Positions 10,098-46,832 of a stretch of DNA of 64,000 nucleotides are shown piece by piece. The stretch lies in contig JASSKH010000026.1 of the NCBI GenBank assembly GCA_031763025.1, forward strand, positions 3,671,240 to 3,735,239, read 5' to 3'. The notes under the pieces are model-generated. The model saw nothing but the letters and a program-made list of their open reading frames with translations, had not been told where the DNA came from and searched no databases. Made by a program: the position numbers and the translations under genes. Numbering within the stretch: position 1 is the first letter of the stretch; each line of letters opens with the position of its first letter. Source of the stretch: Macrocystis pyrifera (taxonomy: Eukaryota > Sar > Phaeophyceae > Laminariales > Laminariaceae).

Positions 10098-10129
<32 letters not shown>

Positions 10130-22939: not shown

Positions 22940-22943
22940 CCGG

Positions 22944-23205
22944 TGTTAAGTGTAATGCAGTATGGACCTAGCGACCGACTACTGCTAGCAGGTTGATGCC
23001 TTTGGCTCTGCTCTGGTCACTCACACGAGGTGCTTGAGGATGGGTTAAGCTCTTGTATTAGTTGCGGTTTGCCTCGCCAGATGTCTTCTGAACGAAGGGG
23101 CGAGGCGCTCATCAGAAAAGCAGGCGACAACGCCTGCCATCCATGATGAGGGGACGATTGCTACAAACCAGAACGCCGCAACAGGGGAGAGGGGATACCA
23201 TAACA
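22944..23205 (-). repeat. 3' LTR of the NADAR gypsy element
   Basis: 262 bases, about 98% identical to 37276-37537, starting tgttaagtg and ending ataaca. The 4 bases before it, ccgg, match the 4 bases after the other LTR. Confidence 0.9.
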
Positions 23206-23220
23206 CTAGCCCACCCTGAC
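23206..23220 (-). promoter_or_regulatory. Possible polypurine tract of the NADAR gypsy element
   Basis: On the minus strand the sequence cagggtgggctag directly precedes the 3' LTR. It is purine-rich but imperfect. Confidence 0.4.
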
Positions 23221-24458
23221 GGGTCGTATATGCAGATTCATGGAAACTCAGGAAAGAACTAAAACAATCCGGAGAATTCGGAAAATGGATCGAAGATGCG
23301 ACACTTCACAACCCACTACTCCCACACCTCTAACCTGTAAGGCGGTAGCCGATTACACGTGACATTGCAAATCCGACAGCAAGTCCGCAAGTACGGTTAC
23401 GCGGAAGCTGGCAAATTAAGCTAGAACTACCCGGAAGCTAAATCGAGGACTTAAACTCGAGAAAGCGGTATAACTCGCGTAGCCAGGAGCGGCATAAGCT
23501 AGCCTGAGAGCGAAAAAAAAAAACGAACACAAAAAATAAGAAGGATCGTTACAGGACCCACTGCAAAGGCACGGGGTGCTTCGAGAAGTAAAACGAACGT
23601 GGGGGTAACGCAAGAGAAACAAGTGCTGGCGCGAAGGGGCTCACTCGAATAGTGGGCACAGTGTCAGAAAACAGGAAATCACGCTATGGTAGAACCCAAG
23701 ACAGTCAAGACCCGATCCCATAGAAGAGGGCAGAACAGGACGCGTGCGAGATTTCGCCTACACTGAGCGCGCTAGAACACGAAACATACAATGAGCAGAC
23801 ATCGTTACGGCCTACTGTTTAAAGTCTGGGTCCGTTGGATTATCCGTGAAAGGTTAACCAATCGTCTACTACCCAATCTAAACCTGATAACACTCTGCAA
23901 TATCGCGCGGGAGGGGGCAGAATGCAAACGGTCGCGAAGAAGAACGAAATCTATCACCTCGGCCTGCTCGGGGATATTAAGAAGGCGGAGGGGGAACGCA
24001 TGAACGACAAATGGGGTCAGACCTAAACCTAGGGTAACCTGTACGATGCGTATAAAAAGGCTCACGAATATGGCCTCGGGAAAATCAAAGAGGGGCCAAG
24101 AGATACAAGAAAAACAACAAAAAACAAGAAAAACTGGTACGACTGAAGGAATCGAAACGCGAACGAACGCTTCCGCCGCTCTCGAGGAGGGGGCGAAAAC
24201 AATCGTAGATACGGAACGCAAGAGACGCATGACCGAACGGCAAGGAGGCTGAAGTGGATCCAACCGTTAGCCCAATCGGTGCACGAACTCGGCAGTCAGC
24301 TGCAATGAAAGCAGGGAAACGGCTAGAGAGTTCGCAGGAAGTCAAACAGACAGTACACCTACAGCACAGCAAAACAAAGAAACCACACAGTGATACGATA
24401 CCAAACCCGGCCCCGGCGACTACAGAAGACACGCATGCGAAAAAAAAAAAAAAATTGG
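23221..24458 (-). other. 3' untranslated region of the NADAR gypsy element
   Basis: About 1.2 kb between the Pol stop (TAG) and the 3' LTR, notably A-rich on the plus strand. Frames on both strands (for example complement 23805-24263) carry no motif I recognise. Confidence 0.5.
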
Positions 24459-27400
24459 CTACGGGGACGTATTCAAGTCGGCAGAGCCTGCTAACTCGGC
24501 TCCGCGGGACTCGTCAACGTTACGCACAATACCACGCATGAGGGAGCTTCCTTGGTGCACTTGTAGACACCACGAGCCGCGAACGGCTCTATCAGCCGTA
24601 GTATACCCAGCAGAAGATAGCGCGAGCTTGACCGGTCCGGGGTCGTCCAAGACGCGAACGACGTACTGTCCAGGGGTTGAAGTGTGGGCAGAATTTGTTC
24701 CGAGCCACCAAAGATGATCTTGACCCTTGTACCGAAAGTGAGCGCCGATAGGCAAGGTGGTGCCGCTGAACCGGCGAGTCCACGTTTGCTGGTCGACGTA
24801 GCTGTATCCAGGAGGCAGAAAACGGGCGCCCTTGTTGCGGGCGAGCTCGCGTTGAGCGGCACCCACGCGCATACGGCGGTACGCCCTATTTGTCTGTCGA
24901 AGTTGTAGGGGCGCGCCGGCCCAGTAGTTGAGGATGTGTTGTCGAGAGTGAAGGAGGTCCGATTCGCGTTCCCAAGACGGCCGGAGGAGACCTTTCCAGT
25001 GCGTTTCGTAGAGAACGGCGATGACTCCGCCCCGACCTCGTACGGACCGGTGGCTGGAAATCTTGTCGACCTCCAAACGCTCAATGGGCACGGAGACGTC
25101 GTCGGCGGTGACATGGAAGGGGGGGGACTTAGTGGCATGGTTGTTGAGGACGTATTGCGTTAGTCCAGCGGGGAGATATCGGGGGAGGTCGGTTGGGTCA
25201 TGTGGGTTGGTGCAAGGTTTGCAGCGGGCTACCGACACACGGCCGTGGGCGTCGGCGCTCGGCATGTCGTTAGGGAGGTCCAAATATAGCAACTTGGCGG
25301 CCAGGGGGCGGCCGTCCGGCGTTGAGTCGGAAGGCGCAGGGCCGACAGCTAATATCTTGAATGGACCTGTCCAGTTGAGCGAGAGTTTCGCCTTGAGAAC
25401 CTTGGCGTCGGTGCTAGATTTCGCCCCTTGGCGAATGGTGGCAGCAGTGTTGTAGATCCATACCCAGTTACCGATGGTGTAGATAGGGCGTTGTTCGAGG
25501 GCGTCTGAGAGAGCTGAGTTACGGCGCTCAGTGCGAGAGACCGTTATAGCGTGTTGTTCCCGCACCAGCGCATACGCACGCCGTTGGCGGTCGGCGGCGA
25601 GGTCGCAGTACTCCAGTTGGTCGCGGGCGAGGCTTTGGTGGCTTCGGGCGTAGTGTTGTTCGAAGATGGTGAGGGGAAGGCGGGGGAGGCGGTTCATCTG
25701 CACCTCATTGGGGGCCAACCATGTGGCGGCGTTGACGGAATTGTTGTAAGCGAATTCCACGTGCGGCAAATGGATGTCCCAGTCGTCCTGTCGTTCGTTG
25801 CAGACCATCGCTAGCATTTGGGCCATGGTGTGGTTAACACGCTCGACGCCGCCGTTGCCGTTGGGATGGTAGGCGCTTGTGGCAATTTTGCGCATTCCCA
25901 GACGTTTGTACACGGCATGGGACAGCTTGGAGCAGCAGTGAAGTCCATTGTCGGAGAGAAGGCTGACCGGACATCCCCAAAGAGGTATGTACTTATTCAC
26001 TAAGATGTCGGCCGTTCCTTCAGCCGTGAACTCCGCAGCCGAGACGGCGTACATATCTGCGTGCCGACTGAACCTATCCGTGAAGAGTAGAATGTAGCAG
26101 TTGCCCCGAGGTGTGACGGGAAGGGGACCGAAGTAGTCAACGCTCACCGCGACACCAGGGCCGGATGGCAACGGAAGGGAGAGGATGGGCCAACGTACCG
26201 TTTGTCTGGAAGTCTTGCGCGCCTGGCATTTGAGGCAACGACGGATCCACCATCGCGTGCAGATGCTCATGCCAATCCACCAATAGAAACGTTCGAGCAT
26301 TGAGAGCGTTCGAGCGACACCAAGGTGGCAGGAGGCGCTAGCATGGCAGGCTTGCATAATCCACGGGCCCATAAGCAGCGGGACGTAGATTCTCGTGGGC
26401 TCGTCGTCTAAGAGACGGGCGGCACGTCCGCCAGGCTTGTCGGGACGAGCCAGAGCGGGGGGCGTCAACTTCCGCACGAGCAGGAGAACACCGTCGTCGT
26501 CTGTGTAAAGTCGTCCGTTTTCGGCTAAGGAGCGCACTTCGGACAACGGGGGGCGTTTGTGAGGCGCGAAGTGTAGAAAGAAATCGTCGGGGAGGACGGA
26601 GGGGCTGCCTAGGAGAAGATACCGAATGGCGGCGTCACAAACCGGCTCAGCGCGTTGCTCACGCGCCCAATCGGAATGTGTGTATTGCTCGACAGAATCG
26701 ATGAACTCGGCCTCTGCCGGTGAGGGTATCTCGGGAAGGGCGGCTGTGGCGCTGGCACGCCCGGGAGGTTCCGGAGGGAGGGTGCCAAGCAAGGGCGGGG
26801 CAGGTGTGACCGCATCGGTGGTGGGTCGAATCGGCACTGTCGGGACAGGGTCGATGACGGGCCGGGGAGAATCCTCTGAAGGGGGCGTAGTCCGAGGCGG
26901 GCGCGGCTTGCGCGCCGTGGGGGCTGGTCGTGGGACGGTGGGCCGAGTGGAATGCGAGCGAGTGAAACCATAGTCCACGGTGGTCGCAGGCTTGCCAGCA
27001 GCGGCTGCTTGGCGACGGCGGGTCCGAGACGAAATGAGCCCCGACGGGGGAAGGGACGGCAGGGCCGTCTGTGAAGATGAAGGCAGCAGAGGCAGAGCCA
27101 CGGGCACAACCGAGACTTGATCACGGTTGGTCCGGGCGACACGCGAGGCTGGATGAGACACAGCAGAGGGCTCCTGAGGACCTGAATCCGTTGGGTGCTC
27201 GGCTGAGTCGTGCTGGACAGGCCGAGCAGGAGAGAGGGTGTCCCACGCTGCTTTGTCGTCGGCGACCGTGGATGAAACGGGGACCGCTGTAGGGCTAGAG
27301 TGCGGTGTGTCATCATCGGTGGGTGATGGGGAAGGCTCGGAGGAAGTGGCGCGTCGGCCGGGGTCCGTGCCTTCGGTTGAAGCGGGCAGAGGTGCAACAG

Positions 27401-28190
27401 GGACTGCGAAGACAGAACCGGCGAGAAAATCGCTGGTACCTGTGTTCGTAGGAGGGGCCCAGTTGGGACCTCGCGAAGTGACGTAGGAGGGGGCACGAGC
27501 AACGGATTCTCCAGTTGGAGCATTTAGGTCGTCAACCCTCATTCGGGGCCCGTGTTGGCGAAAATCGCGGAAATCGTGTGGGGAGAGCGGGAGCCCACCC
27601 AAGCCTAAGCTCGGGTCGGAGGGCGCCAGCCCACCCAAACCGACACGCACGGCGGAGGGTCCACCCTGGAGTATGCCATGAGGGCGGATGAGAAAAACGC
27701 GTTCTTCGTCGGACGGAGTGAGACTGCTGGGGCCGTCGCGGTCGCGCTCCGTCGCAGGTAGGGGCAGGCGGGACAGGAAGTCGGCGTTCCCGTTGGCACT
27801 GCCTTTGCGGCACTCCAGAGTGTAGTTGTATGCGGTGAGAAATTCCAGCCATCGCTGTACCCGCGGGTTATGTTCTGCGATCTTGTCGAGGCTTTCGAGC
27901 GCCTTGTGGTCCGAAAAAATCCCGAATTTTGTGCCCCAAAGGTAGCCGCGAAGGCTCTTGATAGCCCAGACGATGCTGCCTGCTTCCAGATCGAGTGGAG
28001 TCCAGTGGCGTTCAGACTCGATGGTAGCACGGCTGATGAACACGATGGGACGAATGGTGTGATCGTCCTGTTCTTGTTCGAGGGTGGCACCGAAGCCGTC
28101 CACACTAGCATCGCAGTAGAGGAGGAAAGGGCGGGGGTTATCCGTGACGGCGTCCCAGTTGGGATAGACAAGGACCGGAGGCGTGGTCAA
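24459..28190 (-). pseudogene. Gypsy Pol: RNase H, integrase, chromodomain-like module
   Basis: 1243 codons open. RNase H comes first (LLYCDASVDG near residue 25, then FSDHKAL and NADFLSRLPL). A Pro/Ser/Thr-rich linker of about 270 residues follows, then the integrase zinc domain (CHASASCHLG with CLKC) and a complete catalytic triad: Asp685 in VSVDYFG, Asp747 in LSDNGLH, Glu783 in GGVERVN, the D35E spacing. After the GPF-type segment (WTGPFKIL) comes a chromodomain-like module (residues about 1041-1095: EVDKISSHR, YETHWKGL, SWERESDL, ILNYW) that in chromoviruses directs integration to chromatin. About 100 further residues (WWLGTN...YVVRVLDDPG) form a domain I do not recognise. The listed start is not native: RNase H continues from RT, with the frame lost by one base near 28310. 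Confidence 0.93.
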
Positions 28191-28254
28191 CTCGGCAGGA
28201 GCTTCCGCACGATGACTTCCATTTCTGGGGTAAAGACGAACTTGACGCCTTGTT

Positions 28255-31200
28255 TCAGAAGGGAAGTGATGGGCCGTATGCGCTCGGCCATATCGCGCAG
28301 GAATTTCCTGTGTAGGAAAGTGCGCCCAAAAGGGAGCGTAGCTGTTTCAGGTCTTTCGGCATGGGCATTTTCGTCAGTGCTTCCACTTTCTGCGCGTTTG
28401 GCATAACGCCGGCTGGAGAGATGGTGTGACCGAGGAAATCTGCATCCGTGGCTCCGATGGTAGCCTTCGAAGGGGACAGCTTGAGGTTGTGCTGTCGTAA
28501 TCGCAAGAACAATTCCTTCATGTTAGCGACGTGGAGGGAGGGGTCGGCGTCGAAAACGATGACATCGTCAAGGTAGGCGGCAACGCGGTCCAAGCCCTTG
28601 ATGACCTCGTTGATGACTTTGACGAACCACCCTGGAGCGGCGCTGCTTCCCTGGGGCATAACCAGCCACTCGAAAAGGCGCGTGGGAGTACAGAAAGCAG
28701 TGAGAGGGATCGTGTCCTTATGCACCGTTATCTGATGGAAAGAAGAGACGAGGTCGAAGAGTGAGAAGATTCGACCGGTGCCAAGCTTGTCGAGAACCTC
28801 GTCAACGCGCGGGATGGGGAGCTGGCCAAGGATGCTGAGTTTGTTCAGCTTCTTGTAGTTCACCGTGATGCGGATGCCACCGGATTTCTTCGGGATGACA
28901 ACCACGGGGATCGCCCAGGGAGATGTAGAGTGTTGGATTAGGCCGGCGGCGAGGAATTTATCCAGAACCGCGTCCACTTGCTTTGCGGTCGGGGGATTGA
29001 TGCGGTAGGGCCGAGACGTCACAGGAGAGCTGTTCGGGGGAACAGTTATCTTGAAGGGGAGCAGAGAGCAGGAGCCGAAATCGGTTGGGGACTTCGAGAA
29101 TACGTCGGAGAACTCAGCAAGAACATCGCCCAACTGGGTGATGACGGTAGGTGTCCAACCGAGGCCGCGCAAGTCAAATGCGATTTCGCGCATGTGCAAC
29201 GGCAAGTGGTCCCATACTTGTAGGAAGCTCGTGCGTTGGTCTGTGCTCAGCCGTTCGAGCAAGGCAGGTGAAGGGAGCTGGTCGACGGGAGGAGCCGAAG
29301 GGGTCTCGAGTTCTTCGCGTGTCGGGGCTGTCTCGTCGCGTAGATGGTGCACGAAGGGATCCGGGCACTCTGGTTGTGAAGGCTGGTCCGTGCCCCTGGA
29401 ATGGGGGGGGGCTGGCCCTGGGACTGTGAAGCCGGAGTCGCGTGGGTGCAAAGAAGGAGCCGGAGCGTCGAACAGGACAGTATCCAGGGGGACGCGTAAT
29501 AGCGGGCTAGAGGAGGTGCCAAGCAAGGCACCTGGGTCTAGATCCGCGATGCCGGTTAATGAGATGAGCTGGCGGCCATTTTCTACAATTTGTTCGTTCG
29601 CAGAAAAATCGGCGGCCGCGTGCAGCATATCGACCAGATAACAACCGGCTAGGGCAGGGGCACCATTACTGCGAACCAAATCGACATCGACAAGACGATG
29701 GTCGCGGGACAAAGTGATGCTTGTGTCGCCCGCATACAGTAGGTGGAAGCTTTCAGCAGGAGCCGAAGAGTCGGGCACAAACGCTGTTGCGCCCTGAAGC
29801 CCTGGGAGGGACAGCGAAAGCTCGCCGGGAACTCGATTAGTCATCGAACAGGGAGCCAATGTACGGTAAGAGCGGTCCTGGAACCGCATCCAGCTGTCAC
29901 GTCCAAGTAGCACGTCGTGTTGCATCGCTTCAGATGGGACCACGTATGCCCATACGGCGAGTGATGCAGTTGGTGTATCGCCGTGGAAGAATTGTACGCT
30001 TAAGCGTACTGTAACCATGGTCTCAAGAGGCGGAGACTTACCAAAGCCGCCCCATGATCTGGGAGGGGTGTGTCGTTCGCAAGTGGCAGAGGCAGCACCC
30101 ACGCGTTTCATGCTATCGAACGCGCGGGTGTTAAGGAAAGTCTGCGGCGAGCCCGTATCCAAAAGGGCGACACATCCAAGCTGCAGAGCAGCTAGGCCAC
30201 TGTGGATCTTGATTTTGGTGGTAAAGGAAGAGTCGTCCATGGTTACGACACCAGCAACAAGACAAGGCCCTTGCTCCGCGAGCAAGGAGGGGTGCTGACC
30301 GGATCGGGCGGCGGACATTACTTCGAGAACGTCGCCGTCGTGGTCTGATGGCACGGTGGTGGGGGAGTCGGGATGTCCCGACGGGGAGGCGGCTGCAGGT
30401 GTGCCACTTGGGCACAGTTGCTGCCGCGTCGAAGGGTCGACTTCGAAGATGCGGTCTCTACTCGAGGGCGAGATATCCTGAGGAGACCATTGTTGGGGGC
30501 GCGTCGGTGGCGGCGCGCGGTCGCGGAAGAGACGTCGCACGGTTTGCAGGGTTTTGCCCAGCAAATTTAAGCCGCGCCACAGGGGCGGCTGGCGTGCAGG
30601 AGTAGCGTCAGCCCTGTATCCGATGCCCCATATGAGGTCGTAAGGGCTAGCTTCCGCGAGAAGTTTGTCGCCTGTGTCCAAGAGGTGGGTTCGCATGGCT
30701 GGGTTTTGGGCGAACTTGGCGTAAGAGCCGACAAGCACGATATTTTCTCGCTCGCGTCCCCACACGGCGAGATCGAAGTTACGGACTTCGCGTCCGTATT
30801 GCTTGTGCAGGCGGGGGTCAGACACGCGCATGATGTGTTGTAGGGTCTGGTGGTCTCCGAAGAGGCGGCTCTTTTCGGCGGCGAAGAACTGTTCGCCGCA
30901 GGAATAAGAGATGCCTTCGACCGTAAAACGGGAAGGCGTCCATTGCGAGAAGCATGAGGGGGGCTGCCAGAAGAACACGATGTCGCGCGTGCAGTACTCT
31001 TGGGTAGAATCGAACGCGGCGGTATTCACCGTCGCGCGAGAAGGAGCGGGGGGTGTGTCAGACACATCCCCTGCAAAGCAGTTGGGGGTCTCTCTCTCTT
31101 TGGGGGACGGGTCCCATCCTGCTTCTTGCCTAGCCAGGGCCTCGTTATCGAGGCCGGGGTGGGAGGCGCATTCGCCTGGACCGGTCGTGTCTGCCGCCCC

Positions 31201-32316
31201 CGAGACACTTCGGGGAGGGGCAGGGGGCTCCCGACCGGTCCACCTTGACCGGGTGGGCGAGACATCCGCCATGTAGGCGGGAGGCATTTGGAGTGCGTCC
31301 ACAGCAAATGGTGTTGTCAGCACGGCCCGGGCGGTACGCGGGGTCTGTTCTCTCAGATCACCTCGTCGTATCTCGTCTGGGTAAGAAGGGGCGCATTTTG
31401 GCGCCGAGGGCGTAGCTGCGTTTAAGCCCAGTGGGGGACATGTGTCGTCCTGTCGGGGACACGTTTTCTCCACCAGCTCAGTGGCCACCGGCGAAACGCC
31501 GTGGCTCAAAGAAGAATATTCCGTTGCGCTCTGGTCAGGATGAAAATCAAAGCTGACTACACTCCGATCGTCTTTGATAATAGTGCGCAGAGGGAGATTC
31601 CGACTGGTCTTGCGTGAGGACCTCGAGCGGAGCGCCCGTGTTGTTCTCGAGGGGCCTGGGTTCCCGTACCCACACCTTAAGGCGACCCTCACATCCTGGG
31701 AGTCACTCCTGGACATGGTGGTTGCCTCAAAAGATGAAGTCGGGGAAGATGCACGCGAAAAATGACGACTAGTGTCGTTCACGCGGGGACCAGGAGTGCC
31801 GAACACTCCTGGTGCTCGCGGTGGGGAGGCTACGGCGGCAATCATACCGTCGTCTTCGCCAGAACCAGGAGCGGCAAGCATGCCTGGTGCCGGCGGGGAA
31901 GAGCCTACGGCAGCTGGAAGGCGGCCGTCTTCGCAGACACCAGGGGCGGTACGCATACCTGGTGCCGGCGGTGAACATGTAGTACCTACGGTCTCAACCA
32001 AAGGATCGTCTTCGCGTGGACCAGGAGCGGTACGCATACCTGGTGCCGGCGGTGAAGAATATGTAGTACCTACGAGTACTCCTGGTGCTCGCGGTGGGGA
32101 GGCTACGGCGGCAATCATACCGTCGTCGTCGCCAGAACCAGGAGCGACAAGCATTCCTGGTGCTGGCGGGGAAGAGCCTACGGCAGCTGGGAGGCGGCCG
32201 TCTTCGCAGAGACCAGGGGTGGTGAGAATACCTGGTGCCGGCGGTGAAGGGGCAACGCTGTCGCCGGGGGGGCGATGGTCGATGTCTGGGTCAGACGTGC
32301 TTCCCGTGAGTGCCAT
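28255..32316 (-). CDS. Gypsy polyprotein: NADAR domain, protease, reverse transcriptase
   Basis: 1353 codons open. Residues 1-110 are Pro/Ala repeats (SPPAPGM...). Residues about 446-597 form a complete NADAR/YbiA-like domain: FFWQPPSCFSQW, YSCGEQFFAAEKSRLFGD, HKQYGREVRNFD, KFAQNPAMR, LLDTGDKLLAEASPYDLIWG and LNLLGKTLQTVRRL match the family's conserved blocks in order and length. Retropepsin follows (LLDTGS, Asp720; second block VLLGRDSW), then gypsy RT with VIPKKSGGIRITVNYKKLN, FDLVSSFHQI, MPQGSSAAPGWF and active site YLDD at 1248-1251. The last 20 residues are out of frame because of a one-base loss near 28310. NADAR enzymes split N-glycosidic bonds (ADP-ribose or riboflavin-pathway substrates). 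Its role in this element is unknown. The same frame is open into Gag apart from the UGA at 32356. Confidence 0.93.
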   Translation of the reverse strand: MALTGSTSDPDIDHRPPGDSVAPSPPAPGILTTPGLCEDGRLPAAVGSSPPAPGMLVAPGSGDDDGMIAAVASPPRAPGVLVGTTYSSPPAPGMRTAPGPREDDPLVETVGTTCSPPAPGMRTAPGVCEDGRLPAAVGSSPPAPGMLAAPGSGEDDGMIAAVASPPRAPGVFGTPGPRVNDTSRHFSRASSPTSSFEATTMSRSDSQDVRVALRCGYGNPGPSRTTRALRSRSSRKTSRNLPLRTIIKDDRSVVSFDFHPDQSATEYSSLSHGVSPVATELVEKTCPRQDDTCPPLGLNAATPSAPKCAPSYPDEIRRGDLREQTPRTARAVLTTPFAVDALQMPPAYMADVSPTRSRWTGREPPAPPRSVSGAADTTGPGECASHPGLDNEALARQEAGWDPSPKERETPNCFAGDVSDTPPAPSRATVNTAAFDSTQEYCTRDIVFFWQPPSCFSQWTPSRFTVEGISYSCGEQFFAAEKSRLFGDHQTLQHIMRVSDPRLHKQYGREVRNFDLAVWGRERENIVLVGSYAKFAQNPAMRTHLLDTGDKLLAEASPYDLIWGIGYRADATPARQPPLWRGLNLLGKTLQTVRRLFRDRAPPPTRPQQWSPQDISPSSRDRIFEVDPSTRQQLCPSGTPAAASPSGHPDSPTTVPSDHDGDVLEVMSAARSGQHPSLLAEQGPCLVAGVVTMDDSSFTTKIKIHSGLAALQLGCVALLDTGSPQTFLNTRAFDSMKRVGAASATCERHTPPRSWGGFGKSPPLETMVTVRLSVQFFHGDTPTASLAVWAYVVPSEAMQHDVLLGRDSWMRFQDRSYRTLAPCSMTNRVPGELSLSLPGLQGATAFVPDSSAPAESFHLLYAGDTSITLSRDHRLVDVDLVRSNGAPALAGCYLVDMLHAAADFSANEQIVENGRQLISLTGIADLDPGALLGTSSSPLLRVPLDTVLFDAPAPSLHPRDSGFTVPGPAPPHSRGTDQPSQPECPDPFVHHLRDETAPTREELETPSAPPVDQLPSPALLERLSTDQRTSFLQVWDHLPLHMREIAFDLRGLGWTPTVITQLGDVLAEFSDVFSKSPTDFGSCSLLPFKITVPPNSSPVTSRPYRINPPTAKQVDAVLDKFLAAGLIQHSTSPWAIPVVVIPKKSGGIRITVNYKKLNKLSILGQLPIPRVDEVLDKLGTGRIFSLFDLVSSFHQITVHKDTIPLTAFCTPTRLFEWLVMPQGSSAAPGWFVKVINEVIKGLDRVAAYLDDVIVFDADPSLHVANMKELFLRLRQHNLKLSPSKATIGATDADFLGHTISPAGVMPNAQKVEALTKMPMPKDLKQLRSLLGALSYTGNSCAIWPSAYGPSLPF
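30526..30984 (-). other. NADAR (YbiA-like) domain within the gypsy polyprotein
   Basis: This is the DNA encoding residues about 446-597 of the polyprotein. The order of conserved blocks (aromatic FW start, G-E-Q-x-F-x-A-E-K helix, D-P...K-x-x-GR, KF-x-QNP, L-x-TGD...EASPxDxIWG, W-x-G-x-NLLG, R) agrees with the family, and no block is missing. The domain lies in frame between the Pro-rich region and the protease, with no stop or shift, so it appears maintained as part of the polyprotein. Confidence 0.9.
31780..32290. repeat. Coding minisatellite in the NADAR gypsy polyprotein
   Basis: Units built on cctggtgc(c/t)(c/g)gcgg and gcc.gagcggtacgcata recur, with a higher-order period of about 274 bases (ctcctggtgctcgcggtgggg at about 31806 and 32080). 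They encode repeats of the form SPPAPGM(L/R)xAPGxxEDD. Both strands are open across the array. Confidence 0.85.
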
Positions 32317-32326
32317 CGGCGGGATG

Positions 32327-32358
32327 GGAAGGTCAAACGCGCCGCCGTTGGGCAGTCA
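32327..32358 (-). promoter_or_regulatory. Gag-Pol UGA with possible downstream stem-loop
   Basis: The Gag stop (complement 32356-32358) is UGA followed by CUG. Nine bases later comes ggcgg, which can pair with ccgcc about 19 bases further on. Gag and Pol share the frame. UGA followed by C is a leaky context, and readthrough would yield Gag-Pol. Reinitiation at the nearby ATG is the alternative. Confidence 0.45.
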
Positions 32359-33273
32359 ATTGGAGCGGAAGGTCCCTGGTTGACGTCCATTGGGGTTAGA
32401 GTCACCAGCAGATCCGTAGCGCATACTCGGGGTCTGGGGGCCAGAGGAAGGCCCCGGGGGGACGCCGTGTTGGGGTTGGAAAACCGTCAGCGAAGTAGCC
32501 GATTGGCCACCGCTTTGGGAGCCCCTAACATTACCTTGTTGTGCGTCGCCGTGACGAGACTGGCCAGAGTTGGGGTGCCCGTGGTCGTTACGGCGGTTGT
32601 TGCCGTAGCGACGAGACGAGGTTTTGTTGCGAAGCGACGAAGGCGACGAGCGTGTGTTTTCGCCGCCAACGTGGGTAGGACGGCGGTAAGACCGCATGCG
32701 GTGCTGCCAACGGCGGTAGGTTTCGCCGTTATCACCAAGTCGGCCTAGCTCAGGGTTAAGACAGTGGCTAGAGTTGGTGAAGGGGGCAGTGCAGGTTTTA
32801 AAAGAATGATCCGTGCCATGGCAGTTGAGACAGTGGCCCTTGATCTCCCGGAAGACTTGGCGTCTTTCTTCGGGAGTGGTAAAGGGCGTCCATAATGGAA
32901 TGTCATTTGTTGAGAACGATTCGGATACTTGAAGTACCTCGTCCCAAACAGTCGAATTAGCAGGCCATTCGGCCGCGGAAGACAAAAATGGATCAGGCGA
33001 ACGAGCTGACGCCGCGACATTCATCACGATTGGGTTGCGGGACGACCCCGATGAGCCTCTAAAAGGCTGCGGTGCGGCCGATCGGCCTTGGGTGCGACCG
33101 CTTGCATGCGAGTGCAAAGAAAGACCCGCGAGGGGTGGAAGCGTGAAATGTTTTTCGCCGTTGATGGCGGGAGTCTTATTAGTAGAAAGTCCACTAAACA
33201 CCAACCACATGTCGTCGATAGACCCAAAAGGCTTCGACGCAGTCGCTAAATCTCCCGGGTACAAAACCGGCAT
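32356..33273 (-). CDS. Gypsy Gag C-terminal part with CCHC zinc knuckle
   Basis: 305 codons, with one zinc knuckle CLNCHGTDHSFKTC (CX2CX4HX4C) and then an Arg/Ser/Asn-rich basic tail, as in nucleocapsid regions that bind genomic RNA. The first residues overlap the preceding Gag piece in another frame; a one-base change near 33255 separates them. The stop is a UGA. The next stop in the same frame is not reached until 28255, so Gag and Pol are in register and only this UGA separates them. The first in-frame ATG after it is at complement 32314-32316. Confidence 0.85.
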   Translation of the reverse strand: MPVLYPGDLATASKPFGSIDDMWLVFSGLSTNKTPAINGEKHFTLPPLAGLSLHSHASGRTQGRSAAPQPFRGSSGSSRNPIVMNVAASARSPDPFLSSAAEWPANSTVWDEVLQVSESFSTNDIPLWTPFTTPEERRQVFREIKGHCLNCHGTDHSFKTCTAPFTNSSHCLNPELGRLGDNGETYRRWQHRMRSYRRPTHVGGENTRSSPSSLRNKTSSRRYGNNRRNDHGHPNSGQSRHGDAQQGNVRGSQSGGQSATSLTVFQPQHGVPPGPSSGPQTPSMRYGSAGDSNPNGRQPGTFRSN

Positions 33274-33770
33274 GAGGCTCTCGGGTACTGCTCGCTAACG
33301 CTGTTACGAACAACCTCTAGCACAACCTCAACGCCTGGGGCCAAGACTTGGTCACTGTCCGAAATGGACGCTATCAACAAGCGAAAAGCCCGAGAATAGT
33401 CCGCGAAAGGCGTCTTGGTGGCTACCCCAAACGAATGGATCTTAGCCATGGCGGCACTGCGGTCGCCATGATCGAAGTAGGAGCTGATGAGGCGGAGTAG
33501 TAGCAGCTGAAGGCGTCCGGGCCGCTGGCTCCTTTCAGGAAACTCCGTTTCACCTGCCGAGAAATCGTGGAAGGTGCTCGTAGTGAGGTCGAAGGTTCCG
33601 TTCAAAACAAAACTTTTCGCATCGCGAGAAAAAAAATCGGTGAGTAAAGGGGGTGTCTTATCCCTAACTGGGGAATCACTTACTGGAAAATCATTCCCCA
33701 AAAAAATCGCCCAGTATGAGATTGTATAGTGGAAAGTCATCCACGAAAAAGTCATCGACGGAGAAGACAC
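33246..33770 (-). pseudogene. Gypsy Gag core fragment
   Basis: 174 codons. The second half (LQLLLLRLISSYF..., FADYSRAFRLLIASI, EVVRNSVSEQYP) has the helical character of the retrotransposon Gag core and leads, after a one-base frame change near 33255, into the zinc-knuckle piece. The first third is rich in Phe, Ser and Pro and continues the repeat region upstream. The listed start is probably not native. Confidence 0.6.
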
Positions 33771-34129
33771 CCAGTGGGAGATTACTCAGTGGAAAATCAC
33801 CCAGTGGAATATCATCCACGGAAAAATCACCCAGTGACAAATCCGTGGATGGGAGGGAATCGACGTCTCGCTCGAAAAAAACGGGGAGGGTCAGATTCCG
33901 CTGCAGAAAGGAAGTACCATGCCCAACTAGGGGGGGTATATTCATATCCCAAACAAAGGGTGGCCGCAGGAAGGAAGTACTGTGCCCTACTGGAGGGGGC
34001 ATAGGCGAATCGCCAACAATGGTTGACGGCAAAATGGACATACCAGGCCCTAGGGGGGGTATAATCCAAGTGCAAACCGGGGATTGCCGCACAAGGGAAT
34101 CACCCGTCTCTTCCGAAAGAGGCAGATTC

Positions 34130-34900
34130 CAGGCGTAATCCGTGGTTGGGGAATCGGCGTCTCTCTCGAGGAGTGACGGATTCCGGCGCAGAAGAGAATG
34201 TCCAAGCTCTCCCGAGCGGCGCAGATTCACTTCGGAAGCCGTGGTTCGTGGCCGAAAAGAATCGCAAGGCTCTTTCGAGTGGGGCAGATTCAAATCGCAA
34301 ACCGTGGTTGGGGAATCGGCGTCTCTCTCGAGGAGTGACGGATTCCGGCGCAGAAGAGAATGTCGAAGCTCTTCCGAGCGGCGCAGATTCACTTCGAAAA
34401 CCGTGGTTGGGGAATCGGCGTCCCTCTCTAGGAGTGACGGATTCCGGCGCAGAAGATTCAATTCGGAAGCCGTGATTCGTCGCCGAAAATAATCGCAAGG
34501 CTCTTTCGAGCGGGGCAGATTCAAATCGCAAACCGTGGTTGGGGAATCGGCGTCTCTCTCGAGGAGTGACGGATTCCGGCGCAGAAGAGAATGTCGAAGC
34601 TCTCCCGAGCGGCGCAGATTCAAATCGCAAACCGTGGTTGGGGAATCGGCGTCTCTCTCTCGAAGTGACGGATTCCGGCGCAGAAGATGGGAATGTCCAA
34701 GGCTCTCTCGAGCGGCGCAGATTCACTTCGGAAACCGTGGTTCGTGGCCGAAAAGAATCGCAAGGCTCTTTCGAGCGAGGCAGATTCAATTCGCAAACCG
34801 TGGTTGGTGGGTCGACGTCTCTCTCGAATAATACGAGAAGTGACGGGTTTCGTTGCCGAAGAGAATTTCCAAGCACTTGCGAGCGAGGCATATTCAAGTC
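34130..34900. repeat. 99-base coding minisatellite with 33-base modules
   Basis: The anchor cgtggttggggaatcggcg recurs at 34141, 34303, 34402, 34534 and 34633, and as a variant at 34799. Intervals are 162, 99, 132, 99 and 166 bases, all close to multiples of 33. Because the period is a multiple of three and the unit lacks stops, two minus-strand frames and two plus-strand frames stay open across it. Confidence 0.92.
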
Positions 34901-35111
34901 GTAAACAGTGGGTGTTAGACCGAAAACGGATATACCGTCGTCGGAATAATCGCACGCCAGTACTGTGGTCGTAAATACCCGGTGAGCAGGGAATATACGA
35001 ACGACAGTTGGGGGGGCCGGCCCCCCGGCGTGAAAAAGGGGAATACGTGTAGGTGAAACCAACCAATCAACCGTAGGAAAATCGCCGCGCGTCGAAATAT
35101 AACCCATGTCA

Positions 35112-35249
35112 CTTGATAAATATATTGTCGCAATGGATGACGAAGCCACTTGTGCGGGTGGAAATAATATGGTCGGCACACTTGATAAATATATTGTCGC
35201 AATGGATGACGAAGCCACTTGTGCGGGTGGAAATAATATGGTCGGCACA
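35112..35249. repeat. Perfect 69-base tandem duplication
   Basis: The segments 35112-35180 and 35181-35249 are identical as read. The length equals 23 codons, so the Gag frame is kept (SVPTILFPPAQVASSS is repeated). Confidence 0.95.
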
Positions 35250-35569
35250 CTGGAATTCCCCAGATTGTCGTGCTCCCGGTCGAGCAGGGGCACGTATAGC
35301 AGATCCCAAACGTCACGGATAGAACGCAGGGGGATAAAATGCGCGCGTACGTCAGCGAGGGATATCAAGAGGCCGTGCTCGCTGGTCACTGGCAAAAACT
35401 CGGAAGGCGAAAAACGAGGGTCTACAGACTCGTACGTAGTTGCTATCACGAATCGGACGTTCTCGCTGTTCGCTGCTATCGACACGTAAGGCCCGGGCCC
35501 GGCGCTAGGCACAAACAAGGAGCCTGACCAGTTGCTACGCTCTCTCTGACCGCCGGTAGTAACAAAAAA

Positions 35570-36160
35570 AATCGGCAGCAAAAACATCGGTACTCAGTGC
35601 AACAAAAAAAATCGGTGCTCTGTACAACATGAAAATGACTGCGCGGCGGGTCAGGAATAAAAACTGAGAGTCCCGCTGCCGTACCAAAAATGTCGCTGTC
35701 TGCTGTGGTATGAAAATAATCACTGCTGTAGGGCGTCATGTCTGCGATTTGATTGACGTGCAATGCGGGTGGAACTACACTAAAAAAATCGACATCCGGT
35801 GCAACAGGAAAATGGCTGAACGGTGGGTCAGGAGGAAAAGCTGAGCGTTCTGCTGCCGTATCAAAATTATCCCGATTCGCTGTGGCGCTAAAAAAATCAC
35901 TGCTGTACAACGGCACGTCTGCGGTTTGATGGGACGTGTGATGCAGGGAAAACTGCGCTAAAAAAGTCGATATCCGGTGCAACACGAAAGTGGATGGACG
36001 GTGGGTCAGGGGTAAAAGCTGAAAGTCCTGCTGCCGTATCAAAAGTATCGCTGTCCGCTGTGGAATGAAAAAAATTACTGCTGCACGACGGCACGTCTGC
36101 GGTTTGGTGGGCGTGTCGTGCAGGGGAAACATGAAAAAAATCACTGCTATACGGCGGGAC
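35570..36160. repeat. Degenerate tandem units in the Gag region
   Basis: Units of about 180 bases carry gtacggcgggac/cgtctgcggtttg, gaaaaaaatc and gtgcaacacgaaa(a/g)tgg. They translate to repeats with YSSDFF, DTAA, FxPDPP and HxxxxxDFF. Confidence 0.8.
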
Positions 36161-36654
36161 AACGGTTGCTGGTTGAACGTCTAGGACGTCTAGAGCAGGA
36201 TCAACAACTCCACTATTATTACTGCTAATAGGCGCAACCGAAAGGTCGCGATACGCGGGCATAGTGAAATCAAGTTGTTCTTCCGGCACAACAAAAAAAC
36301 ATTCGTTAGTAGACGGAGCTGGTGCTGACGCACGAGCTGCGCGTCGGGCACGTCGTACATCTCGCGCGGACGAAGGTTCAGGAAACTCGCATCGGCCTCA
36401 CAACGAACGGAACGGTCGATGTGAGACGAGTCAGGCGGCAAGCAGTCGCCTGGGGGATGCGTGTTGTGTGACTGCAAAAGCGCGGCAGCGCGTCTTGTCT
36501 GTGAGCGGGTACGAGGGCCAAGCGTGGGTACAGGGGGAACAACTGTGCCAGGCTCGGGTGCCATGAGCAGAGGGAGAGGCGAGCACGAGGACCGAATGTC
36601 CTCGGGTCCCACCTCACTAACGTATAAACGCGTATCGAAACTATCCGTGTTCAT

Positions 36655-37257
36655 ATTGAAAATAAAAGGCGCTGTATGCAGGGCATGCAAAGAAGGGGGG
36701 GGGGGTGAGCCGATCACGAAAAAAATTACTCGGATTTTTGGCGTGACGGATATCATACACCCGAGAGAGGCTTGGCCGACTATCCTGCTGCGCCCAGAAC
36801 GGAACCGGCTGCCCGGAGTGCCGTTCTGGGGCCAGCGCGCTTGTCGTTGCGTCTGGCCTGGCAAGGGTCGAATCAGCGACAAGCATGGGCGAAAGGAACG
36901 AGGGTCTACCTGTTGCAAGCAGTGACAAAGGGGCTGTGGCACGGAAAAAAAAAAAAAGTAGCAGTGACACAGGTGCTCGAGTTGTCAACAAGCATGAAAA
37001 TAGGCAGGCCGGGAGAATACGAAAAATCCCCTGCGTCGCGCGGACCAACAGCGCGCGAACCTATAGCGGCTGTTGCATCAGTCTCATCGCGCGACGCGCT
37101 GGGCAAGCGGCGGATATCATACTCTCGAACGCAATCGCCAAAAGGAGAAGACATCAAATAAACAGCAAGAAGCCAAAAAAAAACAGACTACAAGAGCGAA
37201 AAGCCAGATTGTCCGCGGGGAAAAAAAAAATCACACCTCGAACAGATACCAAAAGCG
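36655..37257 (-). other. 5' leader of the NADAR gypsy element
   Basis: This lies between the primer-binding site and the likely Gag ATG. It has several runs of 9 to 13 A bases on the plus strand. A minus-strand frame is open through part of it without an ATG. Confidence 0.5.
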
Positions 37258-37274
37258 TCTAGTCGACGACGCCA
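37258..37274 (-). promoter_or_regulatory. Primer-binding site of the NADAR gypsy element
   Basis: On the minus strand, one base after the 5' LTR, the sequence starts TGGCGTCGTCGACTAGA. TGG complements a tRNA CCA end. I cannot name the tRNA. Confidence 0.7.
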
Positions 37275-37275
37275 G

Positions 37276-37537
37276 TGTTAAGTGTAAAGCACTATGTACC
37301 TAGGGACCGACTACTGCTAGCAGGTTGATGCCTTTGGCTCTGCTCTGGTCACTCACACGAGGTGCTTGAGGATGGGTTAAGCTCTTGTATTAGTTGCGGT
37401 TTGCCTCGCCAGATGTCTTCTGAACGAAGGGGCGAGGCGCTCATCAGAAAAGCAGGCGACAACGCCTGCCATCCATGATGAGGGGACGATTGCTACAAAT
37501 CAGAACGCCGCAACAGGGGAGAGGGGATACCATACCA
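37276..37537 (-). repeat. 5' LTR of the NADAR gypsy element
   Basis: 262 bases, the partner of 22944-23205. The final base triplet differs (atacca versus ataaca), leaving TG...CA ends. The target duplication ccgg follows. Confidence 0.9.
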
Positions 37538-37541
37538 CCGG

Positions 37542-40099: not shown

Positions 40100-41483
40100 A
40101 ACGGCATCCAATCATATACTATCAGACAGGAGCCGTCGGCTACGGCATCCCAGCCAGGCAAGACCAAAATCGGTGGGGCAGCGAGCTCGGCGAGGATCTG
40201 GCATACGACAACTTCCATAGCCGGTGTGAAGACGTACTTGACCCCTTTCCGGAGAAGGGCGGTGAGAAGACGTATCCGATTAGACAGGTCGGGCAGGAAT
40301 TTGCGATAAACTCCTACGCCGCCCATCAGGGCGCGGACCTGCTTGAGGTTCTTGGGCATAGGCATTTTCATCAAAGCCGAACCTTTTTCCGCGTTGGGGC
40401 TGATACCCGCGGGCTAAATGAAGTGGCCCAGAAAATTGGCGTCCGTGGCGCCGAGGCGAGCCTTCGAGGGGGAGAGTTCGAGGTTGTGTCTGCGCAGGCG
40501 TTCGCAGAGGGCTCGTATCGTCTTGACGTGGGGCGTCGGGTCAGAGTCGAAAACGATCACATCATCAAGGTAGGCCGCCACTTGTGCCAGGCCTTTGATG
40601 ACTTCGTTAATCACTTTGACGAACCAGCCGGGCGAAGCGCTGCTGCCTTGGGGCATGACGAGCCACTCGTAGAGGCCCGTGGGAGAGCAAAACGCCGCGA
40701 GAGGGACGGTGTCCTTGTGCGCGGTAATCTGGTGGAACGAGGAGACCAAATCGAAGAGGGAAAACATCCGACCCTTCCCCAGGGAGTCGAGGACTTGGTC
40801 CACGCGAGGAATAGGCAGCTGGCTGAGGTTGCTGATCTGGTTGAGTTTCTTGTAGTTCACGGTGATCCGAACGCCTCCAGACTTCTTCGGGATGACCACC
40901 AGCAGGCTCGAGTACGGAGAAGTCGAGTGCTGGATCAGACCTGCAGCTAGGTACTGATCCAAGGTGGCCTCCACTTCCTTGGCCAGGATGGGATTGGTGC
41001 GGTGTGGCCTGGACGTGACAGGAGCGCTTCCTTCCGGGACCGAGATCACGAAAGGCGTCAACGAGCAGGAACAAAAAACAGACCTAGACTTCGAGAAAAC
41101 GTCAGGAAATTCGCAGAGAACGTCACCCAGCTGTTCGATGACCCCAGGGGTCCAGCCCGGGCCGTGGAAGCCAAAAGCCACCTCCCGCAGATGTGACGGC
41201 AAGCGTGCCCAGACGCGCAGGAACGAAGCGCGCCGTTCTGTGGTCAAACACTCAAGCAGTACAGGCGAGGGCGAGGCTGGAGGTGCGAGGGGGGGAAGCA
41301 GTAACTGCTGAGACCGGACACACCTCAGATTTTCCGGAAGGAGGGCTGGAGGCTCGGTTGTCCTGCTGCAAAACGTCCAGCGAGACGTTCAGCACTGGGG
41401 CATGGACGACTCCGAGGATATCCCCCGGCTCGAGAGCCGCCACTCCAAAGAGGGGAAGAACCTGTCGTCCGGAGGAGACGAAG
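40100..41483 (-). pseudogene. Gypsy relic: reverse transcriptase part
   Basis: This is a relative of the NADAR gypsy element, read on the minus strand and clearly similar throughout RT: VIPKKSGGVRITVNYKKLN, FDLVSSFHQITAHKD, MPQGSSASPGWF and active site YLDD. It has an in-frame TAG at 40414-40416 where the relative has Ser, after which the frame continues (YRKFLPDL) and fades near 40110 at the start of RNase H. At 41483 it is interrupted by the plus-strand gypsy insertion and resumes at 52671. Peptide text reads continuously across the join when one copy of the gaag duplication is removed. It is a dead fragment without LTRs. Confidence 0.93.
41480..41483. repeat. Target-site duplication (left) of the plus-strand gypsy
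   Basis: gaag before the 5' LTR recurs after the 3' LTR at 52667-52670. Confidence 0.85.
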
Positions 41484-42046
41484 TGTTACAGCGGTTCGGT
41501 GCAACAGGGCATTGCTAAGGTAGCCGTCGAGAGGCCCGATAGACAATGGATTGATGCCGAACGAGGAGGGTTGCCTTCAAGAGGATTGCCAGGGAGGCTG
41601 ACATGCGGAGCAAAGACAGGTTCCATGCCGAGCTGTCAGTCGACCTAACAAAAAGGGGACGATGATGAGAAATGCCCAGGGAAACACGCCTCCAGGAAGT
41701 CAAACCTCAGACAGAAAGGAGCGCGGATGGACACACAAGTTTTTCCCTGGCCAAGAGCAATCCAAATACTCTGAGACCCACCTAACGTCCTCAACACCGG
41801 GCCTGTCAATCAACGAGAGCGAGCGAAGGAGCTAGCATGGATCAGCAGCACTACAACCAGCACGTGGGGCCAACATGCCCGCAGGTCAGAACAGTTCCGT
41901 AGAGGTGCGATTTGTGGTGAACGCAAGCGAAGAGTGGACCCCAGGAGGTCGCTAGTGGCTATAAGACAGGTTACCACCACGAGGGGTATCGAGCTGCCTC
42001 CTAGCCGGCAAGAGAGGACCCCTGCGCAGAGAACGCATTTGAAACA
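41484..42046 (+). repeat. 5' LTR of the plus-strand gypsy
   Basis: Starts tgttacag and ends gaaaca. A TATA-like word (ctataag) at about 41959 could serve the element promoter. Confidence 0.95.
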
Positions 42047-42065
42047 TGGTGTCTAGTCCGGGATC
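42047..42065 (+). promoter_or_regulatory. Primer-binding site of the plus-strand gypsy
   Basis: TGGTGTCTAGTCCGGGAT directly abuts the 5' LTR. It complements a tRNA 3' end in which ATCCCGG would lie in the T-arm. I cannot name the tRNA. Confidence 0.85.
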
Positions 42066-42515
42066 TGCGCGCCGCTTGTAGCGGTCGATAGGGCACTCTC
42101 CTCGCAGGATAGTGATGCAGGGTCCTCAAAGACCAACCTGCTCAACACTCGGCTTCACTTATTTTTATCTTTGTTCTTCTCTTGCTTTGACCGTTCACAA
42201 AACAAAACAAAACAAAACAAAAAAAAAAACACAAGAAAACCAAAAAGCCGTTCACACACAGGGTCCCTATGCATCACAACCTCAATCGTCCGACACCCAC
42301 AAGCCGGCAGGCGCCAAAGCCCCCACACATTTTACAGCAGCAGGGTTACCAAGCCTTCGGGTCGCCATCAGCAGCCCCTTGTTCTCAGTTGGTAGAGGAG
42401 CCCAGAGCTTCCTCGCGTCGAGGTCGCCCGATTACTGAGCACACAAGCAAGTATTGCCCCTATTAATAATATGATATAAGACTACACCATAGAACGAAAT
42501 ACCACAAAAACAGAC
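42066..42515 (+). other. Proximal leader of the plus-strand gypsy
   Basis: It contains a short ATG-initiated frame, 42269-42466, encoding a Pro/Gln-rich 65-residue peptide (TPTSRQAPKPPHILQQQGYQ). Since the main Gag frame has no ATG upstream of its core, this could be a first coding exon or an upstream ORF. There is no direct evidence for splicing. Confidence 0.35.
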
Positions 42516-43350
42516 GTCTTGAGTACGCAACGCGTAGCTGAGCCCTTGCCTTGTCAAGGTAAGCGCCACTTCTAGCGTTGAGCCCACTGCCGTTGACAGG
42601 TTACGTGGTAGATGCATGAGGTTTGCCGAGCCCGTCGCCACATGAAGTAGTGCTGTACGGTACGCATGGTCTCAATTTGGCGGGAAACTACATTCAAAGT
42701 CACAGCAGTAAAAACAACATAAAAAAGAACACACCTTCTTCGAACAAAGCTACATTCAAAGCCACAGCAGTAACAACAACAAAGCACAGGACCACATAAT
42801 CAATCACACCATACCGCGCGATCAATTTCTTGAGTACGCAACGCGTAGCTGAGCCCTTGCTTTGTCAAGGTAGGCGCCACTTCTAGCGTCGTGCCGACTG
42901 CCGTGGACAGGTTAGGTGGTAGACGTTTGCCGAGCCCGTCGCCACATGAAGTAGTGCTGTACGGTACGCATGGTCTCAATTTGGCGGTAAATCACGCTCA
43001 AGCCACAGCAGTAACCACAAAATGAAATAATACCACACGACAGATCACACCGTACCGCAAGATCGACGTCTTGAGTACGCAATGCGTAGCTGAGCCCTGG
43101 CGTTGTCCAGGTAAGCGCCACGTCGAACGTCGAGCCCACCGCCGTTGATAGGTTGCGTGGTAGACGAACGAATACCGCCACGCGTAGCTGAGCCCTGGCG
43201 TTGTCCAGGTAAGCGCCACTTCAAACGTCGAGCCCACTGCCGTTGACAGGTTACGTGGTAGACGAACGAATTTCGCCGAGTCCGTCGCCGTTTAATTTCG
43301 TGCGGTACGGTACGCGTGGCCTCAATTCTGCGGTAAATCACACTCAAGTC
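42516..43350 (+). repeat. Leader minisatellite 1 of the plus-strand gypsy
   Basis: The block gtacgcaa.gcgtagctgagccc, then ttgtc(a/c)aggta.gcgccac and gacaggtta(c/g)gtggtaga, recurs at about 42523, 42832, 43074 and 43181. Spacing is 309, 242 and 107 bases. Within each, short self-complementary words (ccttgccttgtcaagg, ccctggcgttgtccagg) could form hairpins. Confidence 0.85.
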
Positions 43351-43795
43351 CATACCAAAACGGAATATAAAACAACCAACCAATGGTCAGCAATAAAATA
43401 ACACACACATCCAATATATTATATATTTATTATATGTGGCAAGAGCCGTGGCTACGCGAAGGTAACTCAACGAATTGTGATGAACACAAAGACTACCTCG
43501 TAGACCACACCACAGCGCAGGATGGAAGGAGGTCAGGGACGCCGCGTTGGGACCTCCGGCGGTAAGAGGAGACAGAGCGATGACATGGAGTAAGACGGTG
43601 CTCCCGCAGCACACCCCCAACCTGCTGTCTCGTATGCCATCGCGCTCACACATCCGTCCTAACCAACCCCGCGCCCCCTCGATCAACCCCTTGTACGAGA
43701 TAAAGGGCGCCCGCAGCACACCCCCGACCTGCTGTCTTGTACGCCTCCACGCTCACCCGCTCAGGCCGCCAGTTGTCTTCCAGGTTACATACGAT

Positions 43796-44790
43796 ATAAA
43801 TCAACTCGCACTTTGAAATTGATAATACATGGACGGAAAATAACACCCCCAGTAGTCCCCCCAGGCGTGACTCTCGCATTTTTTTTTTCATGCCGCACGA
43901 TAAGAATCAACTCGCATTTTGTAATTCATAATACATGAAGGAAATTAACACCCCCAGTAGCCCCCCCAGGCGGGACTCTCGCATTTTGTTTTTCATACCA
44001 CACGATAAAAATAAACCCGCATTTTGCAATTCATCATACATGAAGGAAATTAACACCCCCAGTAGTCCCCCCAGGCGTGACTCTCGCGTTTTTTTTTCCC
44101 ATGCTACACGATAAGAATCAACTCACATTTTTGAAACTCATAATACATGACGGAAATTAACACCCCCAGCAGTCCCCCCAGGCGTGACTCTCGCATTTTT
44201 TTTTTTTTTTTTTTTTTTTTCATGATACACGATAAGAATCAACTCGCACTTTGAGATTGATAATACATGAAGGAAATTAACACCCCCAGTAGTCCCCCCA
44301 GGCGTGACTCTCGCGTTTTTTTTTTCCTTTTTTTGTTTTTTGTTTTGTTTTTGTTTTTGTTTTTGTTTTTTTTTTTTTTCTTTTTCATCCATGCTACACG
44401 ATAAGAATCAACTCATATTTTTTTAAACTCATAATACATGACGGAAATTAACACCCCCAGCAGTCCCCCAGGCGTGACTCTCGCATTTTTTTTTTCATGA
44501 TACACGATAAGAATCAACTCGCACTTTGAAATTGATAATACATGAAGGAAATTAACACCCCCAGTAGTCCCCCCAGGCGTGACTCTCGCAATTTGTTTTT
44601 TCATACCACACCATACAAATCAACCCGCATTTTGAAATTCATAATACATGAAGGAAATTAACACCCCCAGTAGTCCCCCCAGGCGTGACTCTCGCGTTTT
44701 TTTTTTTTTCGTGCTACACGATAGGAATCAACTCACATTTTGACATTCACGATAAATTAACACCCCCAGGAGCACCCCCAGGCGGCCCGA
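43796..44790 (+). repeat. Leader minisatellite 2 of the plus-strand gypsy, nine units
   Basis: The phrase taacacccccag recurs at 43841, 43946, 44051, 44158, 44278, 44449, 44553, 44659 and 44758, a basic period of about 105 bases. Each unit has atacatgaagg, a C-rich block, ctctcgc and a T run of variable length (up to about 24, with TTTG variants around 44310-44380). Most of the length variation lies in the T runs. The last unit runs into the open Gag frame. Confidence 0.94.
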
Positions 44791-46799: not shown

Positions 46800-46832
46800 A
46801 GGCACGCCCCGGGGGCCGCAGCCCTTCCGGGG
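46797..46832 (+). promoter_or_regulatory. Candidate UGA readthrough signal between Gag and protease
   Basis: UGA (46797-46799) is followed by a 7-base spacer and a GC-only stem-loop. ccccgg (46807-46812) pairs with ccgggg (46827-46832), and gggc (46813-46816) pairs with gccc (46821-46824) around a cgca loop, leaving a 2-base bulge. A stop, a short spacer and a stable structure in a single frame is the layout of retroviral stop-codon readthrough sites. Confidence 0.6.

Follow-up and report, generated by a model that had tools for sequence, protein, structure and literature searches.

Structure of the element

The window considered here, i.e. a stretch of 64,000 nucleotides from the brown alga Macrocystis pyrifera (GenBank assembly GCA_031763025.1, contig JASSKH010000026.1, positions 3,671,240 to 3,735,239), contains a Ty3/Gypsy long terminal repeat (LTR) retrotransposon that carries a NADAR domain of the YbiA type in its polyprotein. 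A first-pass annotation, made from the sequence alone, had described an uninterrupted 1353-codon frame with a Pro-rich repeat, a complete NADAR domain, a protease (PR) with an LLDTGS motif and a reverse transcriptase (RT) with a YLDD motif; all of these are found, and the observation is confirmed as correct and well supported. The features of the element, in window coordinates, are as follows.

22944..37537, reverse strand: whole LTR retrotransposon insertion, 14.6 kb, with an LTR pair, TG..CA ends and CCGG on both flanks
22940-22943 and 37538-37541: target-site duplication of 4 bp, CCGG, flanking the element
37276..37537, reverse strand: 5' LTR, 262 bp, identical to the 3' LTR at 256/262 positions
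32356..33273, reverse strand: 3' part of Gag, 305 residues (open reading frame, ORF), with a CCHC zinc knuckle, CLNCHGTDHSFKTC, read in the translation
32356..32358, reverse strand: Gag stop codon TGA (AAT-TGA-CTG), in the same frame as NADAR-Pol
28255..32316, reverse strand: Pol frame, 1353 residues, with Pro-rich repeat, NADAR, protease and RT (open frame and Pfam)
31800..32250, reverse strand: tandem DNA repeats coding for the Pro-rich N-terminal part of the Pol frame (repeat search)
30526..30975, reverse strand: NADAR domain, residues 448-597 (Pfam)
30892..30894, reverse strand: E475, equivalent by alignment to E43 of the Phytophthora nicotianae NADAR (role as described in PMC11543638)
30871..30873, reverse strand: K482, equivalent by alignment to K50 of the same protein (PMC11543638)
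30652..30654, reverse strand: E555, equivalent by alignment to E125, the glutamate marking the YbiA subfamily (PMC11543638)
29737..30249, reverse strand: aspartic protease region, LLDTGS (AlphaFold model and PDB matches)
28420..28896, reverse strand: reverse transcriptase, RVT_1, residues 1141-1299 (Pfam E 1.3e-25; YLDD motif)
24459..28190, reverse strand: second Pol frame, 1243 residues, with RNase H, integrase zinc domain, integrase core and a weak chromodomain (Pfam)
22944..23205, reverse strand: 3' LTR, 262 bp (repeat comparison)

The two LTRs, which start with TG and end with CA, have 6 mismatches over their 262 positions. LTRs of this form, the target-site duplication and the order PR-RT-RNase H-integrase, read across two frames, are those of a Ty3/Gypsy element. 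The integrase core of the second Pol frame scores 29.7 bits, under the Pfam cut-off of 32.6, and the C-terminal chromodomain match is weak (E 0.013, 15.8 bits vs a cut-off of 25.1). The 3' part of Gag has no Pfam match, and Pfam gave the protease in the 1353-residue frame no name at E 0.1; AlphaFold modelled the protease region with a pLDDT of 83.9 (only two of five models above 79), and the top PDB matches of the model are retroviral-type proteases, with a best E of 1.4e-4. Because the frame changes between 28255 and 28190, just past RT, with RNase H and integrase in a different frame, Pol is interrupted in this copy between RT and RNase H; the single open Pol that it lacks is present in its relatives P0010, P0012 and P0013, where RT, RNase H and integrase lie in one protein.

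Identity and active site of the NADAR domain

The match to PF08719 (E 4.2e-44) spans profile positions 1-162 of 163, i.e. the whole domain. A profile made from 41 sequences (that of the window, the corresponding stretch of the P. nicotianae structure, PDB 8bau, and 39 proteins found with the NADAR-to-protease stretch) gives E 9.7e-74 at 30514-30984, the runner-up in the six frames of the window being at E 1.4, so a chance match is excluded. The structure model has the YbiA fold. The P. nicotianae NADAR, which stands alone, is 32% identical over the aligned residues; E. coli YbiA (PDB 2b3w), likewise stand-alone, is 27% identical in the structural alignment.

Residue names below follow the report on 8bau (PMC11543638), the PDB chain being numbered two higher, with agreement of the letters at all named positions. 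The window domain is the same as 8bau at E43, K50, K75, G78, R79, V81, W89, R93, E125, D130 and W133, and differs at two named residues, where Y84 is F and D86 is L. Among 37 retroelement relatives, position 84 is F throughout and D86 is variable; lysine is kept at K75 in 35, and the E125 position has E in 33, K in two and Q in two. In 40 copies fetched from the same genome, which were the best Pfam NADAR scorers and so are biased to conservation, E475 is kept in 40/40, K482 in 39/40 and E555 in 40/40.

The YbiA subfamily is described as marked by glutamate, rather than Asp or His, at the E125 position, together with E43 and K50 (PMC11125620, PMC11543638); the window has all three, as E555, E475 and K482. 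On these alignments the domain is a true NADAR of the YbiA subfamily, with the catalytic and nearly all of the ADP-ribose-binding residues kept, and the structural and active-site checks that the first-pass annotation had proposed thus came out in its favour. Loss of the catalytic residues is ruled out for the window and most relatives. An antitoxin of the DarT-associated type (BC4488-type, DarTG1) is also ruled out, E555 not being an aspartate, and no ADP-ribosyltransferase (DarT) neighbour was found by Pfam among the 16 window ORFs scanned.

Copies and relatives

A search with the NADAR-to-protease stretch returned 43 proteins, 39 of them with PF08719; 37 of these were counted as retroelement proteins, and 18 of the 37 also contain RVT_1; P0042 and P0043 are the remaining two. 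Ectocarpus is the source of the nearest named proteins. Four proteins are without NADAR, i.e. P0036, P0037 and P0040, which start downstream of its expected place, and P0039, the N terminus of which is unrelated. P0043 (1145 residues) has an mRNA capping enzyme domain (PF01331), a cap methyltransferase (PF03291) and a C-terminal NADAR, perhaps a link of NADAR to RNA caps and perhaps viral. P0202 and similar proteins (409 residues), several of which are among the matches listed, have PF22075 followed by NADAR.

The M. pyrifera genome holds at least 150 NADAR loci over the cut-off (of 1264 first-look candidates 150 were scored, and all 150 pass), and 126 of the 150, as counted from the table, have no internal stop. 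In 40 copies fetched from these 150, PR lies downstream on the same strand in 39, and RT is reached within the fetched stretch in 22; Gag was found upstream of NADAR in 17 of the 20 copies with upstream DNA. The copies fall into family A (21 copies, NADAR 56-61% identical to that of the window) and family B (19 copies, 47-49%). The Gag-NADAR-PR order is thus repeated in many other copies, and the many copies and several families rule out accidental capture in one copy. Nothing that the first-pass annotation had named as fatal to its proposal, i.e. want of a NADAR match, catalytic loss in all copies or single-copy capture, was found.

In two of the fetched copies, L201 and L186, RT is ~79-81% identical to that of the window (L186 is partial) and NADAR and PR are ~48-53% identical, a pattern for which recombination between element families is a possible origin. 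Among viral contigs the NADAR-to-protease stretch gave seven pattern matches and no relatives; the NADAR alignment alone gave at least 509 NADAR relatives, with a top identity of 49% among the best 80.

Selection on the domain

NADAR has a mean identity of 0.53 over 110 divergent pairs, compared with 0.45 for PR, 0.60 for RT and 0.29 for the linker, i.e. between families NADAR changes less than protease and linker. NADAR and RT identities are correlated (0.92, 190 pairs), as is expected if both travel together. Synonymous sites are near saturation in comparisons between the window, family A and family B (for NADAR, synonymous differences, pS, 0.71-0.75 and nonsynonymous differences, pN, 0.28-0.36).

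For pairs within families with dS < 0.1, NADAR has a mean nonsynonymous over mean synonymous divergence (dN/dS) of 0.49 in A (209 pairs) and 0.42 in B (171 pairs), RT one of 0.40 in A (126 pairs), and PR one of 0.52 in A (94 pairs) and 0.93 in B (133 pairs). For changes common to at least two copies, the ratio of nonsynonymous to synonymous changes, divided by opportunity, is 0.40 (A, 17 changes) and 0.29 (B, 11 changes) for NADAR, 0.23 (A) and 0.96 (B) for PR, and 0.21 (A) for RT; for changes in single copies the NADAR ratio is 0.60 and 0.63 in A and B, respectively. By these measures NADAR is under constraint, weaker than that on RT, the within-family picture relative to PR being mixed; the dN/dS check that had been proposed at first pass thus points to constraint, in a sample that favours it.

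The Gag-Pol junction

At the end of Gag the window has AAT-TGA-CTG, family A AAC-TGA-CAG and family B AAC-TGA-CAA. The AAY-TGA-C motif is present in 11 of the 14 copies inspected (of the 17 with Gag), and absent in L218, L220 and L224. In other systems a UGA stop with C as the next base is leaky, and the recurrence of this context at the end of Gag would fit readthrough into the NADAR-Pol frame.

Stand-alone algal NADARs

A NADAR tree of 60 rows, the element rows of which include the short proteins P0045, P0047 and P0052 without an RT of their own, places the algal NADARs, from elements and stand-alone alike (31 rows), on one side of a branch with support 95/92. Six stand-alone NADARs (from Ectocarpus sp., E. 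fasciculatus, Pylaiella, Scytosiphon, Hapterophycus and one more) group with P0188 of Pylaiella (98/92), and this group is nested inside the element diversity with support 93/88. Their shared ends in several species suggest that the stand-alone proteins are host genes. A small N-terminal Cys/His motif, like CxLPGCS..C...H.YC..TH, is present in five of the six (P0059, P0062, P0063, P0164 and P0176, the last a partial sequence), and it has no Pfam family match in the three scanned, P0059, P0062 and P0063.

The nesting suggests domestication of an element NADAR as a stand-alone brown-algal gene; it does no more than suggest it, because a topology in which the element NADARs form one group that excludes the stand-alone proteins was not rejected (p-AU 0.0797, in an earlier set of 38 rows). 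Nine viral-contig NADARs placed in a separate tree all fall outside the algal clade. A search for relatives of P0072, the outgroup protein, with P0072 rather than the window as query, returned myxobacteria and planctomycetes first. A bacterial donor was considered, and none is named because no bacterial group adjoins the algal clade with strong support.

A stand-alone NADAR is also described in the literature: Esi0017_0056 of Ectocarpus (391 residues, two introns) is described as stress-induced and as improving salt and heat tolerance in Arabidopsis, and the available parts of that report (PMC7922944) draw no connection of it to retrotransposons.

Other elements in the window

A second LTR element, the LTRs of which are identical for 300 bp or more, lies on the forward strand at 41484-52666; it has a 1278-residue Pol frame without NADAR and interrupts an older element related to the NADAR one, represented by an RT piece (40315-41262) and a PR piece (52703-53172), in which a NADAR profile search found no NADAR remnant. 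At 5020-11596 there is a Copia-like remnant or element, with Retrotran_gag_2, CCHC, Pol_BBD and integrase core, between repeats that are 98% alike. A 1030-residue frame at 59501-62593 has RVT_1 (E 5.3e-35) and no further Pfam domain at E 0.01; a repeat inside it (62202-62501) has a 99% copy at 54877-55176.

Discussion

The first-pass annotation knew of no retrotransposon domain set with NADAR, which is out of date: the combination of NADAR and Gypsy is already known from Ectocarpus, where Dinatale et al. (2025; PMC12477816) report a NADAR from one lineage of Gypsy elements, with blastp matches outside Ectocarpus almost only bacterial. Their Gypsy-12_Ec32 lineage is like the present element in having a YbiA-family NADAR at the N terminus of Pol and a brown-algal host, the host genome being 200 Mb vs 537 Mb here; it has a putative C-terminal chromodomain, for which the match in the present element is below the cut-off. 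That the lineage is probably the same is judged from its description and from the Ectocarpus matches P0038 and P0041. The same report describes NADARs in ORF1 of Tx1 long interspersed nuclear elements of the oyster Crassostrea gigas, i.e. also in retrotransposons, but non-LTR and divergent. No further literature report of NADAR in retrotransposons was found among the matches listed, as judged by title and start of abstract. Beyond what is available of PMC12477816, the present work adds, in another genome, the analysis of active site, selection and stand-alone genes. Nidoviruses and other RNA viruses also embed a NADAR in the polyprotein of an RNA-replicating element, but at 20-25% identity (named rows) and with an RNA-dependent RNA polymerase rather than a reverse transcriptase.

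Our best guess at a mechanism, which we hold tentatively, is that the domain is an eraser of guanine-linked ADP-ribose carried with Pol. An algal Ty3/Gypsy lineage would have acquired a YbiA-type NADAR and kept it at the N terminus of Pol, between Gag and protease; it would be translated as part of Gag-Pol, through a leaky UGA-C stop that recurs at the end of Gag, or from an ATG of its own, and would enter particles together with Gag-Pol. There it may act as an N-glycosidase that takes ADP-ribose off guanine bases of the element RNA or single-stranded cDNA, and reverse transcription would therefore not be blocked. The NADAR would thus be a nucleic-acid clean-up enzyme beside the protease, in a position like that of the betaretrovirus dUTPase. 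That dUTPase is a nucleic-acid clean-up enzyme between Gag and protease, its fold and reaction being unrelated to those of NADAR.

The proposal draws on the domain, its modelled fold, the kept active-site residues predicted from alignment and the Gag-NADAR-PR order in many copies, with RT where the stretch reached. The NADARs tested, E. coli YbiA included, are reported to remove ADP-ribose from guanine in RNA and to be inactive on ADP-ribosylated phosphate ends (PMC11833690), so the idea is limited to bases. The first-pass interpretation, an eraser protecting the element against a host ADP-ribosylation response, is accordingly supported in part: a true NADAR with its residues kept, conservation across many copies and families, and tested homologues active on guanine speak for it, and a role at phosphate ends falls away; packaging in particles, a host ADP-ribosylation response in this alga and protection of element RNA or cDNA are its conjectural parts.

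Several observations weigh against this eraser proposal. We know of no guanine-ADP-ribosyltransferase in brown algae. Position 93 is R in 12 and C in 25 of the 37 retroelement relatives. The Gag TGA is in frame with NADAR in 6 of 12 sequences (11 copies and the window), a fraction not clearly distinct from what chance would give among decayed copies. In family A the shared-change ratios of PR and RT, on few changes, both lie below that of NADAR, and the choice of the best NADAR scorers makes residue and dN/dS counts lean to conservation. Residues alone also leave the substrate unfixed, since E. coli YbiA acts on riboflavin intermediates as well (PMC11543638).

The substrates of the NADAR might instead be small molecules and not nucleic acid, i.e. 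signals resembling cyclic ADP-ribose, or products of NAD breakdown, that belong to a host alarm. We consider this rather unlikely, although such a role has been proposed for phage NADARs (PMC9503650) and the described pocket contacts are to ADP-ribose itself (PMC11543638); an enzyme confined to particles would be badly located to meet signals that diffuse, and the NADARs in polyproteins of eukaryotic RNA viruses, a closer analogue, are argued to act mainly against macromolecular ADP-ribosylation (PMC9503650). A role in processing the RNA through which the element transposes, with no connection to host defence, as suggested by Dinatale et al. (2025; PMC12477816), fits with the presence of NADARs in RNA-virus polyproteins too (PMC9503650) and is in our view improbable: the proposal, as far as available, names no specific reaction, and ADP-ribosylated phosphate ends of RNA are not among the substrates of the NADARs tested (PMC11833690).

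Less probable again is metabolic house-cleaning of riboflavin-type intermediates, for which the activity of YbiA is a precedent (PMC11543638), or a stress-tolerance benefit to the host that the element shares, to which the properties of Esi0017_0056 lend some colour (PMC7922944); fusion to Pol beside the protease would be an odd location for a metabolic enzyme, and host-benefit selection on a multicopy element would be weak. A passenger domain without catalytic role, acting as a structural or RNA-binding spacer, would suit a within-family dN/dS of only 0.42-0.49 and the absence of the E125 glutamate in 4 of 37 relatives, but is equally improbable given active-site residues conserved across families at ~50% identity next to a linker at 0.29.

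Should the NADAR prove active and necessary, ADP-ribose erasers would be carried by retrotransposons as well as by phages and RNA viruses, and the element would point to an unrecognised nucleic-acid ADP-ribosylation activity in brown algae; with the active site kept, a single purified domain would suffice to test the eraser proposal directly. That stand-alone algal NADARs nest among those of elements also provides a test case for domestication. The fuller account, in which a particle-borne guanine-ADP-ribose eraser counters a host ADP-ribosylation response and the stand-alone NADARs of Ectocarpus and its kin, one of them stress-induced, descend from retrotransposon NADARs, is unlikely as a whole; if true, it would mean that a eukaryotic genome and its retrotransposons are engaged in an arms race over ADP-ribosylation.
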